Source: Bacteroidota bacterium (GTDB taxonomy: Bacteria; Bacteroidota; Ignavibacteria; Ignavibacteriales; Melioribacteraceae). From it: a DNA stretch of 64,000 nucleotides. Positions 49,327 to 56,626 of this stretch are shown here, piece by piece. The position numbers were made by a program, and so were the translations under genes. Under the pieces are notes generated by a model. The model was given only the letters and a program-made list of their open reading frames with translations, searched no databases and was not told where the DNA came from. The stretch spans positions 124,001 to 188,000 of the forward strand of contig JAHISP010000071.1 in NCBI GenBank assembly GCA_018818165.1, read 5' to 3'. How positions within the stretch are numbered: position 1 is the stretch's first letter; each line of letters opens with the position of its first letter.

Positions 49327-49968
49327 TTGGGAATAGTGATTAAAAAATATATTGACATAAATAATTGGAAAAGAAAAGAGCATTATGAATTTTTTTCAAA
49401 ATATGATGAGCCATTTTGGGGAGTAGTTTCAGAAATTGACTGCACAGAAGCGTATGAAAAATCAAAGGAAAATGTTTTTTCATTCTTTTTATATTATTTA
49501 CATAAATCCATACTTGCACTAAATGAAATTGAGGAATTTAAATACAGAATTAGGGATGGTAAAATTATTGTGTTTGATAAAATTAACGTAGCAACAACTA
49601 TTGGAAGACCTGACGAGACATTTGGCTACTCATTTATTGAATATGAAAAGGATTTCAATAAATTTTTAATTTTAGCAAATAATGAGATATTGAGGATTAA
49701 TAATTCTACAGGGCTTAGCTTAACTGAAAATTCTAAAAGATTAGATGTAATTCATTATTCTTCATTGCCATGGACAAAATTTACAGGATTATCACATGCA
49801 AGAGATTTTAAAAATCTTGATTCAATTCCAAAAGTTGTTTTTGGAAAATTCATGATTGTAAACGGTAGGAAAATTATGAATGTGTCTTTGAATGCTCATC
49901 ATGGTTTAGCTGATGGAATACATGCAGCTAAATTTTTTGAATTGTTCCAAAAACTTATGAATGAATAA
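49327..49968 (+). CDS. Chloramphenicol acetyltransferase-like protein (CAT fold)
   Basis: The 213-residue protein has the type A CAT architecture, with the active-site motif HHGLADG (residues 191-197; family pattern HHxxxDG) near the C-terminus. Earlier CAT-like segments are FWGVVSEIDCTEAYEKSKE, FSFFLYYLHKSILALNEIEE and FKYRIRDGKIIVFDKI. Chromosomal members are usually acyltransferases of unknown substrate, so chloramphenicol resistance should not be assumed. The start is uncertain: TTG at 49327 or GTG at 49336. It lies between the NlpC/P60 and carbonic anhydrase genes, with short gaps. Confidence 0.85.
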   Translation: MGIVIKKYIDINNWKRKEHYEFFSKYDEPFWGVVSEIDCTEAYEKSKENVFSFFLYYLHKSILALNEIEEFKYRIRDGKIIVFDKINVATTIGRPDETFGYSFIEYEKDFNKFLILANNEILRINNSTGLSLTENSKRLDVIHYSSLPWTKFTGLSHARDFKNLDSIPKVVFGKFMIVNGRKIMNVSLNAHHGLADGIHAAKFFELFQKLMNE

Positions 49969-49997: not shown

Positions 49998-50822
49998 ATG
50001 AAAAAATTTTTAATAAAAAGTTTATTTGTATTTGCTTTAACACTATTAGTGTTTTCATGTGACAATTCAAAAATTGAAGATAAATCTATGTCATCTGATA
50101 AACATGAGGGTACACATGTTAAAAAACAAGATTGCAATGATGTTCATTGGTCACACCATGAGGGAGAAGAAGGACCTGCACATTGGAAGGATTTATGTGA
50201 TGCTTTTGCAGCATGCGGTGGACAAGCACAATCACCAATTAATATCGTAACAAATGAAACTAGTGTTGGAACTAATTTGAATCAAATACAAATTCATTAT
50301 GATTCAACCCCTGTTGATATTATTAATAATGGTCATACTGTGCAATTTAATGTTTCTGGAAATAATACAATTACTCTTGGCGAAAAAGAATACAAACTAT
50401 TACAATTTCATTATCATGCTGCAAGTGAACACACAATTAATGGAAATCACTATCCAATAGAAGTTCATTTTGTAAATCAATATTCTGATTCAGATTATTC
50501 GGTTGTTGGTGCCATGTTTGAGGAAGGAACCGCTAATGAATTATTCACCGAATATTTAGCAGAATTTCCTGAAAGCAAAGGTGAGTATACTTCTGAAAAT
50601 ACAATAGATTTGGAAAAGCTTTTACCATCCAATCTGGATTATTACTATTATATCGGTTCTTTAACAACTCCACCGTGTTCTGAAATTGTAAATTGGTATG
50701 TGTTAAAAACTCCTATCAAAGCATCAAAAGAACAAATAGAGAAATTTGCTGGGATATTGCACCATAATTATAGACCAGTAATGCCTTTGAATGATAGGAA
50801 AGTTTTAAGTTACAATAAATAG
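49998..50822 (+). CDS. Alpha-class carbonic anhydrase, lipoprotein
   Basis: This enzyme hydrates CO2 to bicarbonate. The 274-residue protein has a lipoprotein signal ending VFSC (Cys21), so it is periplasmic or surface-exposed. The alpha-CA domain shows QSPINI (78-83), the zinc ligands His138 and His140 (QFHYHAASEH) and His157 (EVHFV), and the C-terminal LTTPPCSEIVNWYVL. A His-rich linker (residues ~36-62) lies between the anchor and the domain. AAGGAGATATA precedes the ATG. The length is normal for bacterial alpha enzymes with a spacer. Confidence 0.95.
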   Translation: MKKFLIKSLFVFALTLLVFSCDNSKIEDKSMSSDKHEGTHVKKQDCNDVHWSHHEGEEGPAHWKDLCDAFAACGGQAQSPINIVTNETSVGTNLNQIQIHYDSTPVDIINNGHTVQFNVSGNNTITLGEKEYKLLQFHYHAASEHTINGNHYPIEVHFVNQYSDSDYSVVGAMFEEGTANELFTEYLAEFPESKGEYTSENTIDLEKLLPSNLDYYYYIGSLTTPPCSEIVNWYVLKTPIKASKEQIEKFAGILHHNYRPVMPLNDRKVLSYNK

Positions 50823-50893: not shown

Positions 50894-52048
50894 TTACTTT
50901 AGAATTCTATTTAATACTTCAGCAACTTTATCTAATTGTTCATAAGTAATAACAGCGGGAGGAAGCATACGTAATACAATTTTACCTGCTGGCATTGCTA
51001 AAATATTTTCTTCCATTAATTGTTGTAAAATTGGTTGAACTTTTTCTTTTAGTTCAATTCCAATCATTAAACCTTTATGTCTAACTTCCCTAACTTTTGA
51101 AAGTTCATCTACATTTAATTTACTAACAAAGTAATCACCTTTTTCTTTAGCTTGTTTTGCTAGGTTGGTTTCTTGCATAAATGTAATGGCAGCTAAACCA
51201 GCAGCAGACGCAAGTGGATTTCCACCAAAAGTTGTTCCATGCTGACCAAATCCTATTTTAACTTTATCTGAACAAATAGCAGCACCAACAGGAAATCCAC
51301 CAGCGATACCTTTGGCAACTGTTAAAATATCGGCATCAATTCCAAAATGTTCAATTGCAAACATTTTTCCTGTTCTGCAAAATCCAGATTGAATTTCATC
51401 AATAATCAATAATATGTTATTTTTATAACAAAGAGAGCGAACTCCTTCAAGATATGCTTGCGATGCAATATTAATTCCACCTTCTCCTTGAATTACCTCC
51501 AAAATTATTCCAGCAGTTTTTTCGGTAATGGCTTCTTCCATTTTTTCAAGATTATTAAATGGAACAAATGAAAAACCGGGCACAAGTGGCTCAAATGGTG
51601 TTCGGTATTCTTCTTTGTGTGTTCCGCTCAAAGCTCCCATTGTTCGTCCATGAAATCCTTTCATGGTTGTTATAAAATCAGTTTTACCAGTTGAAACTCG
51701 TGTAAACTTTATTGCCGCTTCCATTGCTTCCGTTCCAGAATTTGTAAGAAACGAACGTTTTAAATTTGCTGGAGTAATTTCATTTAATTTTTCTAGGAAC
51801 AATGCTCGAGTATCATTATAAAAAACACAAGCATTTGTGATAAGTGTTTCAGCTTGTTTTGTTATTGCTTTAACTACGTCTGGATTTGAGTGACCGATTG
51901 TAGCAACACCAATACCAGCTGCACAATCTATAAATTCATTACCTTTTTCATCCCAGACTGTTGCATCTTTACCTTTTACAATAACTAAATCTCGTTTTGG
52001 ATAAACTGCAACTTCATAATTGTCAATTAATTCTCTAAAATTTCTCAT
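50894..52048 (-). CDS. lysJ: [LysW]-aminoadipate semialdehyde/glutamate semialdehyde transaminase
   Basis: This class III PLP aminotransferase (384 residues) resembles ArgD/acetylornithine aminotransferase. It has [56 protein letters not shown], and the PLP lysine in [13 protein letters not shown]. Because it is the last gene of a LysW operon and overlaps lysZ by four bases (ATGA), its likely role is LysJ, which transaminates LysW-bound aminoadipate semialdehyde to LysW-lysine. It may also serve the arginine route (ArgD). Sequence alone cannot separate the two. Confidence 0.88.
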
Positions 52049-52836
52049 TGGATTATGGTTCCTTCACCATTTATTGCATTTGTAATTGGATTATTTTTTC
52101 GACCATCACAAATGTAAACAGAAGTTTTACCGCTTTCAAATAGTTTAGTAAGCGCTTTCATTTTTCTTTTCATTCTTCCATCAACTTGTGTTTCCCGTTG
52201 TTTTACTTCTTCTTTTGAAATTACTTTTACAACAGAATTTGGATTATTTACGTCATCTAAAAATCCAGGAGCTTCTATCAATTGGAAAATTCTATCTGCA
52301 TCCAAAGATTCTTTTAACAAAGCAACAATGTCATCATTCTCAGAACTTATAGCAAAATTATTTTCATCAATTATTGGAACAGTAATAACAGGCACATATC
52401 CATTGCTAATTAGCAACTGTAGTAATGCTATATTAATGGTTTTGGGCTTTCCAGAAAAATCTCTTACTATTTTAAGTTTCCCATCTTCCTTTATTTTTAT
52501 TCCTTTATTTCTTTGTCCTTCAATTAATTTTCCATCAACGCCAGTTAAACCAATTGCATTTATTCCAACTTGCTGGCACATTTCTACAATTCGTTTGTTT
52601 CTCAGCCCTGCGTAAGACATCATCATAATATCCAAAGCTTCGCTATCGCTATACACGGATGAATATCCGGAAGCTGAAAGTAGAACCTTTTTTTCGTAGT
52701 GTAATTTATTTGCTATTTCATCGCGCAAAGCATTTGCACCATGAACTATTATAAATTCATCTTCCAAGTTTACCAAGTCTTCAATAATAGCTTCCAAATT
52801 AATTTGTTCACCACCACCAATTTTAATAATTGTCAT
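52045..52836 (-). CDS. lysZ: [LysW]-aminoadipate kinase
   Basis: The 263-residue protein belongs to the amino acid kinase family (ArgB-like). It has the N-terminal TIIKIGGGEQI, the substrate loop FIIVHGANALRDEI, ASGYSSVYSDSEALDIMMMS and the central GINAIGLTGVDGKLIEG. LysZ phosphorylates the side-chain carboxylate of LysW-bound aminoadipate. The assignment rests on the operon with lysW, lysX and lysY. It overlaps the amidotransferase upstream (ATGA) and lysJ downstream (ATGA), so the three are translationally coupled. An ArgB role on LysW-glutamate is the alternative. Confidence 0.88.
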   Translation of the reverse strand: MTIIKIGGGEQINLEAIIEDLVNLEDEFIIVHGANALRDEIANKLHYEKKVLLSASGYSSVYSDSEALDIMMMSYAGLRNKRIVEMCQQVGINAIGLTGVDGKLIEGQRNKGIKIKEDGKLKIVRDFSGKPKTINIALLQLLISNGYVPVITVPIIDENNFAISSENDDIVALLKESLDADRIFQLIEAPGFLDDVNNPNSVVKVISKEEVKQRETQVDGRMKRKMKALTKLFESGKTSVYICDGRKNNPITNAINGEGTIIQ

Positions 52837-53471
52837 TTAAATACTCCACTTGAGTTATTGTCTATTTTATTCCAACCTGTTTCATTAGGATAAACTTGAG
52901 AGCATATTACTAGTTCTGTCCCGTTTTGCTTATAATGCATTTGAAAATAATCTTCGTCTTCATTGAAGAGGGAAGAATAATATACTTTTTCTTTATCCGT
53001 TATTATTATGTTCATAGCTCTTATATAACTGGATTTTTTATTAATTATCTCAATTGCTTTTGGAAGTGCAGCTTTCATACCGATAGAATCAAATCGCTTA
53101 ACGAAATTAAAAATTTTTTCAGCTCCAATTCTTCCATCAGCTTTAATTTTAACTCCTCGAAGTTCGCCATTAAAAATAAAAACATACTTGTCATCAAAAA
53201 ATGGCATATTATTTTCAACGATTATATCTTTATCCTCAAAAGCACTACGAGCATGGACGATTAATCTATTTGTTTTTCCAAACTGATTTATATCATCATC
53301 CCATATTGGCTTTATGTTTTTATAATGAATCCAATTATTATTATCTAAATAACTACATCCCCAACCATGACCTTGAAATTCCTTGCTATTCTTGGCAATT
53401 ATGGAAAACTTATTTAAATGCCCTTCAATAATAAATTCATTTTCTGATTTTACAAATAGTAATCGGCACAC
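52833..53471 (-). CDS. Class II glutamine amidotransferase-like protein within the lysine operon
   Basis: The 212-residue protein has the Ntn-type class II amidotransferase fold (GATase_4/YafJ-like). It begins MCRLLFVKSE, so Cys2 becomes the N-terminal nucleophile after Met removal. It also has EFQGHGWGCSYLD, LIVHARSAFED and FIFNGELRGV, the usual glutamine-binding parts. Such enzymes hydrolyse gamma-glutamyl amides. It stands alone, without a synthase domain. It lies 15 bp after lysY and overlaps lysZ by four bases, so it belongs to the LysW operon. No known step of LysW-dependent lysine synthesis needs it, and its substrate is unknown. Confidence 0.82.
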   Translation of the reverse strand: MCRLLFVKSENEFIIEGHLNKFSIIAKNSKEFQGHGWGCSYLDNNNWIHYKNIKPIWDDDINQFGKTNRLIVHARSAFEDKDIIVENNMPFFDDKYVFIFNGELRGVKIKADGRIGAEKIFNFVKRFDSIGMKAALPKAIEIINKKSSYIRAMNIIITDKEKVYYSSLFNEDEDYFQMHYKQNGTELVICSQVYPNETGWNKIDNNSSGVFK

Positions 53472-53486
53472 AATAATTCCTTAAAA

Positions 53487-54533
53487 TTAAATTGGATAAA
53501 GTCCAGTAAACTCAAGCCCTAGAGTTTCATCAAAACCAAACATTATATTAAAAGCTTGAAGAGCTTGTCCAGCAGCACCTTTCATCAAATTGTCAATTGC
53601 ACTTATAACAACAAGGCGATTTGAATATGGATCTCTTTCAAAGCCAATGTCACAGTAATTTGTTCCAATGCAAAGCTTTGGATCTGGGTAACGATAATTT
53701 CCTTCTTTCTCCTTAATAATTCGGATAAAAGGCTCATCTCCATAAGCTTGTCTATAGATTTGCCAAATATCTTTTTCAGTCAAATCTTCCTTTAAGAAAA
53801 CGTGACTTGTTGCCAGTGTTCCTCTAACCATATCTGTAGAAGTTGCAGAAAAGTGAATTTGAATTTTTTCATTAAAAGAAAGTTCTTGAATAATTTCAGC
53901 TGCATGTCTGTGTCCAGTTGGTTTGTATGAACGCAGCGAACCAGTTCTTTCAGGATGGTGAGTTGCAAAGGATGATTTTTTACCGCCTTCACTTGTTCCA
54001 ACTTTTACTTCAACAACTGTCCTATCAATTTCCACTAATCCATTTTTATATAAAGGATAAAGTCCAAGAATAGTAGTTGTTGCGTTACAGCCAGCACTTG
54101 AAATATATTTAGCATCTTTCATTTTATCCCGATGTAATTCGGGAATTCCATAAACGAATTTGTTTAGCAACTCTGGATTTACGTGTGTCTGTTTATACCA
54201 TTTCTCAAATTCTTTAACATCATTTAATCTAAAATCACCACTGAGATCAATAATTTTATCGGCAATATTTATAAATTCATTCATCTTTTTCATCGATTCA
54301 CCATGCGGCGTGCAAAGAAAAAGTAAATCAGTTTTTTCTAATTCATCCACAGCACAAAATTTGAGGTTTGTTGCTTTTCGTAAGTTTGGATGAGCTTTGT
54401 GAGCAAATTTTCCGTAGTAAGAACTTGATGTAATTTGCTGAATATTAATATTTGGATGCGAAATTAACAACCTCAATAATTCACCACCAGTATAACCTGA
54501 TGCTCCAATAATTGAAACATTTATTTTTCCCAT
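53487..54533 (-). CDS. lysY: [LysW]-aminoadipate 6-phosphate/glutamyl-phosphate reductase
   Basis: LysY reduces the LysW-bound acyl phosphate to the semialdehyde with NADPH. The 348-residue protein is ArgC-like: NVSIIGASGYTGGELLRLLI (NADP-binding, residues 4-23), the catalytic Cys in KYISSAGCNATTTILGLYPL, and EVKVGTSEGGKKSSFATHHP. The ATG at 54533 lies two bases after the end of lysX and fits the family start. An in-frame TTG six codons earlier would overlap lysX. The neighbours lysX and lysW make a LysY role more likely than plain ArgC. Confidence 0.9.
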   Translation of the reverse strand: MGKINVSIIGASGYTGGELLRLLISHPNINIQQITSSSYYGKFAHKAHPNLRKATNLKFCAVDELEKTDLLFLCTPHGESMKKMNEFINIADKIIDLSGDFRLNDVKEFEKWYKQTHVNPELLNKFVYGIPELHRDKMKDAKYISSAGCNATTTILGLYPLYKNGLVEIDRTVVEVKVGTSEGGKKSSFATHHPERTGSLRSYKPTGHRHAAEIIQELSFNEKIQIHFSATSTDMVRGTLATSHVFLKEDLTEKDIWQIYRQAYGDEPFIRIIKEKEGNYRYPDPKLCIGTNYCDIGFERDPYSNRLVVISAIDNLMKGAAGQALQAFNIMFGFDETLGLEFTGLYPI

Positions 54534-54534
54534 T

Positions 54535-55386
54535 TTAATTCTCTCTGCCAACTTTTAACACATAATCAACAATTAGTTTAGGAATATCCACTCCGGTTGT
54601 TGTGATGCTGTTTTTAAATTCCATTGTATAATTAACTTCGTTTACCATAAGTTCATTATTCTTTGTTTCAAAAAGATCAATAGCAACAATACCGCCACCA
54701 ACTGCTTTTGCTGCTGCAACAGAAAGATTTGCAATTTCTTCCGTAACCTCACATTTAGTAGCAGTTGCACCTTTTGCTGTATTTGTTATCCAGTGTTCAG
54801 AACCACGATAAATAGCAGCAATGCATGTATCACCGATAACAAAACTTCTAATATCACGTCCTTCTTTTTTATCCACATATTTTTGAATATAAAATATTGA
54901 ATGATGATATGTTCCTAAAACTGTTTTGTGTTCAAGAATGGATTCTGCAGCATCACGGTCATTAATTTTTGAAAGCAATCTTCCCCAAGAACCAACGGCT
55001 GGTTTTAGCACAACTGGATATCCCATTTCTTCAATTGCCTCTAAAGCAGAAGTTTCTGTAAATGCAATTTTTATTTCTGGTTGTGGTATGTTATTATCAC
55101 GTAACGCAGAAGATGTTAACAGTTTATCTCCGCAAATGGTTGCAACCTTAAATGAATTAACACATTTAACCCCAGCACTTTCAAATAGTTTAATTGAATG
55201 AAGTGCTCTTGAGTGATTGATTGAACGTTCAATTAAAACATCAAGATCTGATTCATTTTTATTTAAATCGAAAATTAAATTCCTATCATCAATCATTATC
55301 AATTCAACATCTTCGCGTTTATTAAATTCTTCAATTAAAAATTTTTCCTCTTTTCTTATAAGTGAATGTAAAAATCCAACTCTCAT
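54535..55386 (-). CDS. lysX: [LysW]-aminoadipate/glutamate ligase (LysX/ArgX family)
   Basis: This 283-residue ATP-grasp protein (RimK-like) is the ligase that attaches the alpha-amino group of aminoadipate, or glutamate, to the C-terminal Glu of LysW. Visible parts are [20 protein letters not shown], the ATP-binding [23 protein letters not shown]-like [18 protein letters not shown], and the metal-binding end [20 protein letters not shown] followed by NYTMEFKN. The start ATG at 55386 has AAGGAGAAAACC upstream. Whether it prefers aminoadipate or glutamate, or uses both, cannot be read reliably here. Confidence 0.9.
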
Positions 55387-55459: not shown

Positions 55460-56626
55460 TTACTTAGACTTCTGCTTATGTTTGTAGTTTTGTTTTATAA
55501 AGTGAACAATATGTGGAAGTTCAGTTAATTCAACTACTTTTCCTTTTTGTCCAATGTTTTTTACTTGAGCTAAAACTTCTAATTGAAGTTCTGGAGATAA
55601 TTTTGTTTCACCAATAAAAGATAGTGCATATTTAATTGAAGCAATTCCAGACATATGATCGAGTGAAAATGTCCTTTCTTTGCCAAGAAGTTGTGGGTCT
55701 AAGCTTTCGTAATGTGTGGGATTTATTGCCGCCGCATGTGTGTGAACTCCAGCGCAGTGAGTGAAAGCATGTTTTCCAATAATTGGATAATTGCCGGGAA
55801 TGGGAACTCCAGAGTGTGAACTTACAAATTGATAAAGTTCGTCCAGCTTGTCCAATTTCCAATTGTTTAAACCAAAATCTGCTGTAAGTACCATCATTAT
55901 TTGGGCTAAATCAACAATTCCGGCTCGTTCGCCTAAACCAAGAACTGATGCATCAATAATTTCAGCTCCAGCGCGATATGCATCCAAGGCATTTGCAAGA
56001 GCAAAACCACGATCGTTGTGGCAATGAACTGCAATTTTAGGATTTAATCCTCTTGAGTTTAATTCATATTTTAATTTGGATATATAATCGAACATACTTC
56101 TGTCTGTTCCGGGAATCATATATCCAGTTGTATCGGCAACACTAATAATATCAGCACCTGCTTCAACAGCAGCAATGGAAACAGCAACAACATTGCTAAA
56201 CTCTGAGCGAACAGTATCTTCTGGTGTATATCTGATAATTATATCTGGGTTTTGACTTTTTGCAAATTTAATTACATCAGTAATTTGTATAATAGCCTCA
56301 GCTAAATCCTTTTTGAAAACAGTATTTAGTCTGTCGTCAGAAACACAATAGAAAATACCAATGAAATCAACTCCACAATTTAATGCAAGTTGAACATCAT
56401 CTTTTAATGAGCGAGCGTGAGCTCCAACAATTGCTTTAAAATTATTATGAGCAATTATTTGCACAGAATCATGAATTTCTTGTGTCACTGAAGGATGACC
56501 AGTTTCAATTATATCAACACCTATGTCATCAAGCATTTTTGCAATAGCAAGCTTTATATGCTTATCAAAATATACACCTGGAGTTTGTTCACCTTCACGT
56601 AATGTTGAGTCAAGTATTTGAAGCAA
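55460..56626 (-). CDS. lysS: Homocitrate synthase
   Basis: This DRE-TIM enzyme condenses 2-oxoglutarate and acetyl-CoA to homocitrate, the first step of alpha-aminoadipate lysine synthesis. The 388-residue protein starts LQILDSTLREGEQTPGVYFD, followed by ETGHPSVTQEIHDSVQ, and has the metal site IAVHCHNDRGFALANALDAY. The HxH and Arg residues of the active site are present. GHPSV is typical of homocitrate rather than isopropylmalate synthases. The start is TTG (56626), one base after the lysW stop codon. NifV is the alternative name, but no nif genes are present and the LysW context favours lysine synthesis. Confidence 0.88.
   Translation of the reverse strand: MLQILDSTLREGEQTPGVYFDKHIKLAIAKMLDDIGVDIIETGHPSVTQEIHDSVQIIAHNNFKAIVGAHARSLKDDVQLALNCGVDFIGIFYCVSDDRLNTVFKKDLAEAIIQITDVIKFAKSQNPDIIIRYTPEDTVRSEFSNVVAVSIAAVEAGADIISVADTTGYMIPGTDRSMFDYISKLKYELNSRGLNPKIAVHCHNDRGFALANALDAYRAGAEIIDASVLGLGERAGIVDLAQIMMVLTADFGLNNWKLDKLDELYQFVSSHSGVPIPGNYPIIGKHAFTHCAGVHTHAAAINPTHYESLDPQLLGKERTFSLDHMSGIASIKYALSFIGETKLSPELQLEVLAQVKNIGQKGKVVELTELPHIVHFIKQNYKHKQKSK

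Follow-up and report, generated by a model that had tools for sequence, protein, structure and literature searches.

A class II amidotransferase-like protein of LysW lysine operons probably acts as a γ-amidase of the carrier's C terminus in place of LysK

We found that a LysW operon of a Bacteroidota bacterium carries, between lysY and lysZ, an amidotransferase-like gene (here GAT for short) whose product is probably a γ-amidase of the LysW C terminus, which would replace LysK and would also deamidate LysW proteins ending in Gln. In the LysW route, LysX joins the amino group of aminoadipate to the γ-carboxylate of the C-terminal Glu of LysW, and LysZ, LysY, and LysJ convert LysW-γ-aminoadipate to LysW-γ-lysine. 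In many bacteria and some archaea that use this route without LysK, GAT very probably does the cutting that sets lysine free, judging from the comparisons below. It may also mend carriers with a wrong last amino acid.

The gene lies in a 64-kb stretch of DNA (the window) as part of the order lysW-lysS-lysX-lysY-GAT-lysZ-lysJ, all on the minus strand (Table 1), so that lysW, lysX, lysY, lysZ, and lysJ of the LysW lysine pathway are found together. GAT starts with GTG and its N terminus reads M-C-R-L-L, with Cys at position 2. A gap of 15 bases separates it from lysY, and its stop codon overlaps the lysZ start in an ATGA (52836-52833). The position between lysY and lysZ and this overlap had been proposed in a first-pass annotation and are confirmed here, together with the strand, which it had left unstated. 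The plus-strand frame over 52833-53471 is interrupted by several stops. A chance ORF is excluded, because the AF2 model of the protein reaches a pLDDT of 92.6 (15-row alignment) and homologues occur at the same place in several phyla. The window's genome holds a single GAT copy.

Table 1 Features of the LysW operon and of the GAT gene in the window.
Feature	Position	Strand	Basis or remark
lysW, carrier protein, 55 aa	56628..56795	minus	TIGR01206 64.5 bits, cut-off 53.2
LysW Glu55 codon	56633-56631	minus	last residue of the C terminus EEDWGE
lysS-like synthase	55460..56626	minus	NF002085 (2-isopropylmalate synthase) 348.1, cut-off 517; TIGR02146 (homocitrate synthase) 347.2, cut-off 413.55
lysX, aminoadipate-LysW ligase	54535..55386	minus	TIGR02144 348.8 bits, cut-off 275.6
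lysY, argC-type reductase	53487..54551	minus	TIGR01850 412.5 bits, cut-off 233.6; start codon uncertain
GAT gene	52833..53471	minus	212-aa ORF; class II (Ntn-Cys) amidotransferase fold; proposed LysW C-terminal γ-amidase
GAT Cys2 codon	53468-53466	minus	arithmetic from start
GAT Arg75 codon	53249-53247	minus	arithmetic from start
GAT Asn101-Gly102 codons	53171-53166	minus	arithmetic from start
GAT Gly116 codon	53126-53124	minus	Asp in relatives; arithmetic from start
lysZ, [LysW]-aminoadipate kinase	52045..52836	minus	NF010659 237.3 bits, cut-off 223
lysJ, class III aminotransferase	50894..52048	minus	NF042418 (LysJ) 441.4, cut-off 700; TIGR00707 426.6, cut-off 410.05

Two of the operon's assignments call for comment. 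The lysS-like synthase is tied between the 2-isopropylmalate synthase and the homocitrate synthase models, below both cut-offs, and has a C-terminal Pfam domain of the homocitrate-synthase type (HCS_D2, 50.9, cut-off 27); from its operon context we take it as a homocitrate synthase. LysJ scores over the cut-off of the general argD family and under that of the LysJ model. No homoaconitase-type genes were found in the window. The genome carries lysA (467.8 bits, G000:C94:5434-6642) and may thus have a second lysine route (DAP) besides LysW. Among 36 genomes searched, 21 had lysA over the cut-off; in the window's class, 7 of 23 genomes with LysX were without a lysA match at E 1e-10, and these probably rely on the LysW route. 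A Pfam CAT (chloramphenicol acetyltransferase) protein with a TTG start and another ORF adjoin the operon (49327-49968 and 49998-50822); judged by eye, the latter ORF resembles an alpha-type carbonic anhydrase and has a lipoprotein-like signal.

GAT matched no Pfam family at E 0.001, and its sole NCBIfam match was EgtC (TIGR03442), where it scored 35 bits (cut-off 218.65); the GAT of the archaeon GW2011_AR15 (AR15) reached 55 bits, also under this cut-off. By sequence, the window's protein is therefore assigned neither to EgtC nor to the M20-type LysK family (TIGR01902). The nearest fold to the AF2 model is that of EgtC (Foldseek TM 0.79; VIA Z 24.9, rmsd 2.0 over 199 residues), with 14-16% identity in the structure alignments, followed by the glutaminase domains of GlmS (Z 21.1) and PurF, which places GAT among the Ntn folds. 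As to a glutamine-synthetase-like fold of the Dop/PafA kind, the model matched Ntn folds and no Pfam family, among the families listed.

The active site was compared in an alignment of 77 GAT members, made up of the window and 76 of the 80 loci described below (L114, L122, L149, and L152 were left out). C2, R75, N101, and G102 are invariant in all 77, the Cys always directly follows the initiator residue, and R75, N101, and G102 align with their equivalents in GlmS, YafJ, and EgtC. Asn-Gly is the oxyanion pair of class II glutamine amidotransferases, and in GlmS and PurF structures glutamine is bound through its α-carboxylate by the Arg and through its free α-amino group by an Asp. At position 116, which we take to be the site of GlmS Asp123 for the glutamine α-amino group, GAT has Gly in 77 of 77 members (I-G-A-E), where GlmS, YafJ, EgtC, and nine paralogues have Asp (T-D-S-E, T-D-T-E, V-D-S-A). 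This placement was obtained by profile alignment to the nine paralogues and YafJ (98.5% probability) and also by direct alignment with two paralogues, GlmS, YafJ, and EgtC. GAT thus lacks the Asp of class II amidotransferases that use free glutamine, and because of this replacement throughout the family we would file it by its fold and not as a glutamine-using enzyme. A LysW-bound Glu has a free α-carboxylate and no free amino group; an active site that has kept the Arg and lost the Asp would fit a C-terminal carrier residue as the substrate. EgtC (PDB 4zfj/4zfk/4zfl) shares with GAT the fold, the N-terminal Cys, the Arg, and the Asn-Gly pair and cuts a γ-glutamyl amide, but differs in its Asp (V-D-S-A). 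It is described in PMC9103826, in the part that concerns it, as a γ-glutamyl amidohydrolase that takes the glutamyl residue off its intermediate.

In 296 genomes of the phylum, we found 15 strong matches to the GAT protein (40-100% identity), all of which adjoin lysZ; lysY is visible on the other side in 14 and lies on a second contig in the 15th. Nine further weak matches resemble by eye EgtC/YafJ-type paralogues and have no lys genes adjoining. We additionally sampled the window's class by LysX instead of GAT. Of its 245 genomes, 23 were over the LysX cut-off (the LysX-like matches of G109 and G421 fall below it and outside the class counts), and GAT was present in 22 of these, 21 times as lysY-GAT-lysZ and once with GAT-lysZ-lysJ on another contig; in the 23rd genome (G438) the contig ends inside lysX. 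The same sampling gave LysX in 5 of 193 genomes of the AR15 clade, in 13 of 40 of a Calditrichia-MAG clade (12 over the cut-off), and in 5 of 369 of a Thioglobus-MAG clade, with GAT in 5/5, 13/13, and 5/5. In all 23 genomes of these three clades GAT is downstream of lysY; eleven had already been found through the GAT scan and twelve were new. In the archaeal genome G621, whose LysW ends in Gln and in which M20 gave no match, GAT is separated from lysY by several kb (L192 10510-16175). Taken together, GAT was found in 45 of 46 LysX genomes of the four clades, the 46th being the contig that ends too early. One lineage of LysW operons has GAT as a constant member.

A scan of contigs yielded 244 stretches that encode GAT relatives, of which the best 80 were analyzed as loci. 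By record title, these 80 come from bacteria of the Ignavibacteria/Melioribacter, Calditrichota, KSB1, 'Deltaproteobacteria', Desulfobacterales, Binatia, SAR324, and Gammaproteobacteria (for example Thioglobus, Granulosicoccaceae), and from archaea of the Woesearchaeota/GW2011_AR15. Where the contig has room, lysY lies upstream of GAT in 71 of 75 loci (exceptions L081, L086, L117, L126) and lysZ downstream in 70 of 72 (exceptions L086 and L152). GAT still precedes lysZ in L081, L117, and L126 and precedes lysJ in L086; at L152, no lysZ was found at the locus. Among loci with room, these same five have no lysX near GAT, as far as the locus itself goes. When ORFs of at least 80 aa were grouped over the 80 loci, the commonest family besides the lys genes and GAT occurred in only 19. 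Distance correlations over 48 loci were 0.75-0.84 between GAT and the other genes and 0.79-0.91 among the others, which shows joint inheritance only.

In the archaeon AR15, a single run holds lysW, a gene similar to lysS, the large and the small subunit of a homoaconitase-type enzyme, a dehydrogenase of the homoisocitrate type, lysX, lysY, GAT, lysZ, and lysJ; this run contains no lysN (aminoadipate aminotransferase). The archaeal loci L084, L092, L124, and L191 contain the same three genes (T-like, U-like, dehydrogenase). The S, T, U, and dehydrogenase models applied to AR15 also cover enzymes of leucine synthesis. By these assignments, release is the sole LysW-bound step in AR15 that is left without an assigned enzyme. 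No lysS was found near the gammaproteobacterial GAT operons, and the product of proteobacterial operons without lysS is less certain. The window's LysX holds a ten-residue stretch that is nearly the same in the LysX of these operons as in the rest; an Asn-Thr signature is given for the aminoadipate-type LysX of Sulfolobus in the part of PMC10433800 that covers it.

The pattern is different for LysW operons of the M20 type. LysK is an M20 metallopeptidase, and a LysW-lysine hydrolase is listed for Deinococcus-Thermus in the relevant part of PMC3356886. Nine plasmid lysW loci each contain an M20 gene and no GAT, and on a Deinococcus plasmid the order is S-T-U-W-X-Y-Z-J-K, where Z follows Y with no other gene annotated in between and GAT is absent. 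A GAT profile run over 10 plasmid loci (1222 six-frame segments) gave no match, nor did a tblastn search with GAT give a match in a collection of 72,556 plasmid records; the LysX-bearing plasmid records are thus without GAT, unlike the LysX genomes of the four sampled clades. The expectation that GAT would be conserved in LysW operons therefore held for the lineage described here and did not extend to M20-type operons.

The distribution of LysK is the reverse. The LysK model TIGR01902 (NCBIfam NF003367 / TIGR01902, cut-off 163.1 bits) separates LysK well; a Deinococcus LysK scores 329 bits and the M20 protein from a Streptomyces cluster 264. In the window's genome, the best match reaches 92.1 bits. 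No LysK over the cut-off was found in the 23 LysX genomes of the class, in 50 genomes of the contig scan (50 of 80, with 30 left out), or in the 12 further LysX genomes, that is in 0 of 85, where the best listed score was 115.9 bits; G438, in which GAT was not seen, is among the 85. Among the controls, LysX and LysK were over their cut-offs in the same four genomes (Thermus composti, Deinobacterium chartae, Haloferax volcanii, Sulfolobus acidocaldarius). LysK and GAT were never seen together in the 85 genomes and the nine M20-type plasmid loci. The first-pass annotation had asked whether the gene tracks with the absence of lysK; in the genomes compared it does, and the annotation's idea that the enzyme releases amino acids from LysW and replaces LysK gains support from this pattern and from the operon linkage.

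A hidden LysK was also sought beside the GAT operons with Deinococcus and Streptomyces LysK/M20 queries (loci L054-L153 and L190 on). Aside from the M20-type controls and the M20 locus L204, only weak matches were obtained, in L126 (27% identity, partial) and L111 (E 0.001). Peptidase_M20 (PF01546) had no match in five of seven archaeal GAT genomes (G475, G477, G478, G496, and G621, completeness not given), one of which, G477, is the AR15 record titled chromosome; G535 and G567 had two and four listed matches, and all 14 control genomes had one. In bacterial GAT genomes there are further M20 peptidases that score under the LysK cut-off, at most the 115.9 bits mentioned above, and one of these could act on LysW.

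An observation that goes beyond the first-pass annotation concerns the last residue of LysW. Over 99 lysW loci, including duplicates and three M20-type controls, 77 end in EDWGE and 22 in EDWGQ; the Gln codons are CAA and CAG and precede TAA, TAG, or TGA stops. Among 77 distinct operons, defined by distinct lysY with lysW, lysX, and lysY in one locus, LysW ends in Glu in 60 and in Gln in 17. By record title or sample, Gln-ended LysW was found in Ignavibacteria, Calditrichota, KSB1, Desulfosarcina, Gammaproteobacteria, and archaea. The state changed at least 11 times on the lysY tree and 12 times on the lysX tree, which are approximate numbers from quick trees with weak inner branches; 200 shuffles on the lysY tree gave a mean of 15.6 changes and a minimum of 11. 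None of 12 M20-type LysWs ends in Gln: the three PDB entries and the nine plasmid proteins, two of them nearly identical, all end in Glu (eight EDWGE and one ESWGE on plasmids). The contrast of 17/77 with 0/12 is suggestive, given a small sample and sets of which neither is independent. The EDWGE motif is stated for LysW of Thermus, Sulfolobus, Thermococcus, and Natrinema in the corresponding part of the haloarchaeal study PMC10433800.

A Gln at this position should be unusable as it stands, because LysX joins aminoadipate to the γ-carboxylate of that residue. The simplest reading would be that a γ-amide hydrolase for the LysW C terminus is present and that a Gln hence costs little. C2, R75, N101, G102, and G116 are the same in Glu-type and Gln-type operons (36 and 10 compared). 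Together with Gly116 in place of Asp, the Gln-ended carriers point to the LysW C terminus as the likely substrate of GAT.

From these data and from the chemistry of the Ntn amidotransferase family, we infer the following course. Cys2, exposed after removal of Met, would attack the γ-carbonyl of the C-terminal residue of LysW. With LysW-γ-lysine, lysine would leave, and water would resolve the LysW-thioester to LysW-Glu; with LysW-Gln, the same reaction would release ammonia and give usable LysW-Glu. One acyl-enzyme would thus serve both leaving groups, lysine or ammonia. Since GAT would act on LysW-Gln too, the last residue could drift between Glu and Gln in these lineages.

The main alternative to hydrolysis by GAT is transacylation, which we consider unlikely. 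In the sister pathway, the Ntn enzyme ArgJ (ornithine acetyltransferase), which has a Thr nucleophile set free by self-cleavage and transfers acetyl, takes the place of ArgE, an M20 deacylase, and thereby recycles the blocking group. If GAT followed this precedent, the LysW thioester on Cys2 would be captured by aminoadipate and not by water, so that LysW-γ-lysine and aminoadipate would give lysine and LysW-γ-aminoadipate without ATP. In such an improbable self-recycling route, LysW would pass from lysine straight to aminoadipate, and LysX would only start or top up the cycle, like N-acetylglutamate synthase beside ArgJ. For Gln-ended lineages, it would imply, just as doubtfully, that LysW-Gln is charged directly with aminoadipate under loss of ammonia and that carrier loading costs no ATP. 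Sequence cannot tell hydrolysis from transfer, and an Ntn-fold protein is indeed found where LysK is not. However, the closest fold is that of the hydrolase EgtC, all 22 loci whose LysW ends in Gln contain lysX, and no aminoadipate site could be identified.

Two further readings were rejected as the main role. The Gln-ended LysW of 17 distinct operons would suit a GAT that only matures or edits the carrier, by deamidating its Gln or clearing wrongly charged LysW, and leaves lysine release to another hydrolase. We regard this as very unlikely: GAT is also kept in the 60 of 77 rows with Glu-ended LysW, the five archaeal genomes named above show no M20 peptidase for the release, and no other family is widely shared in the 80 loci. 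The class II amidotransferase fold itself had suggested an ordinary glutaminase that feeds ammonia to an operon partner, an option that the first-pass annotation had also raised and that is weakened by our results. The known LysW route has no ammonia-using step, the Asp that holds the glutamine α-amino group in relatives is Gly in all GAT members, and ammonia supply accounts neither for the absence of LysK nor for Gln-ended LysW, which makes it hardly credible.

As a γ-amidase, GAT would share with LysK the proposed step, the release of lysine from LysW-γ-lysine, and the location with LysW genes, but would differ in chemistry and fold, with metal catalysis in LysK and an Ntn cysteine in GAT. 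In its logic only, the proposal resembles Dop and Pup, with a small carrier that ends in Glu or Gln, an ATP-dependent ligase, and a γ-amide. Dop deamidates Gln-ended Pup and cuts the conjugate, is kept even where Pup ends in Glu, is related to carboxylate-amine ligases and glutamine synthetases, and works on lysine side chains of proteins, according to the sections of PMC3511204 concerned with it. GAT is likewise kept in operons whose LysW has a C-terminal Glu. We take the resemblance as convergent. In the open-access literature, we found no paper that joins LysW or amino group carrier protein with a (glutamine) amidotransferase, none that joins lysine biosynthesis, aminoadipate, and class II glutamine amidotransferase, and none with EDWGQ; papers on LysW and LysK did not name an amidotransferase in the title or the start of the abstract.

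If GAT acts as proposed, it would fill the last-step gap of the LysW route in Ignavibacteria, Calditrichota, KSB1, several proteobacterial groups, and Woesearchaeota-type archaea, and genomes without lysK but with GAT could be read as completing the lysine route. A metallopeptidase would then have given way to a non-homologous Ntn cysteine amidase, the reactive last residue of a carrier would alternate between Glu and Gln, and primary metabolism would hold a convergent counterpart of Pup/Dop.

Several loci show additional genes. Some operons have two lysX-like genes (L100 8063-9022; L191 8705, 9601; L192 8632, 9560), in the KSB1 locus L100 with the second one between lysY and GAT; such a gene could encode an added carrier ligase for another substrate. 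In L070 (14326-18535, genome G051), a second argC/argB/argD-like set directly follows the lysW-GAT operon, with 35%, 24%, and 39% identity to LysY, LysZ, and LysJ. Upstream of lysW in L107, L121, and L136, there are by eye lookalikes of a branched-chain amino acid ABC transporter and an acyl-CoA ligase, which perhaps serve aminoadipate uptake. Bacillota plasmids carry clusters of a small LysW, a RimK-type ligase, an aminotransferase, argC, and an M20 gene, such as L231 4995-10162 on the Staphylococcus epidermidis plasmid NZ_CP043848.1 and L230 of Pseudalkalibacillus.
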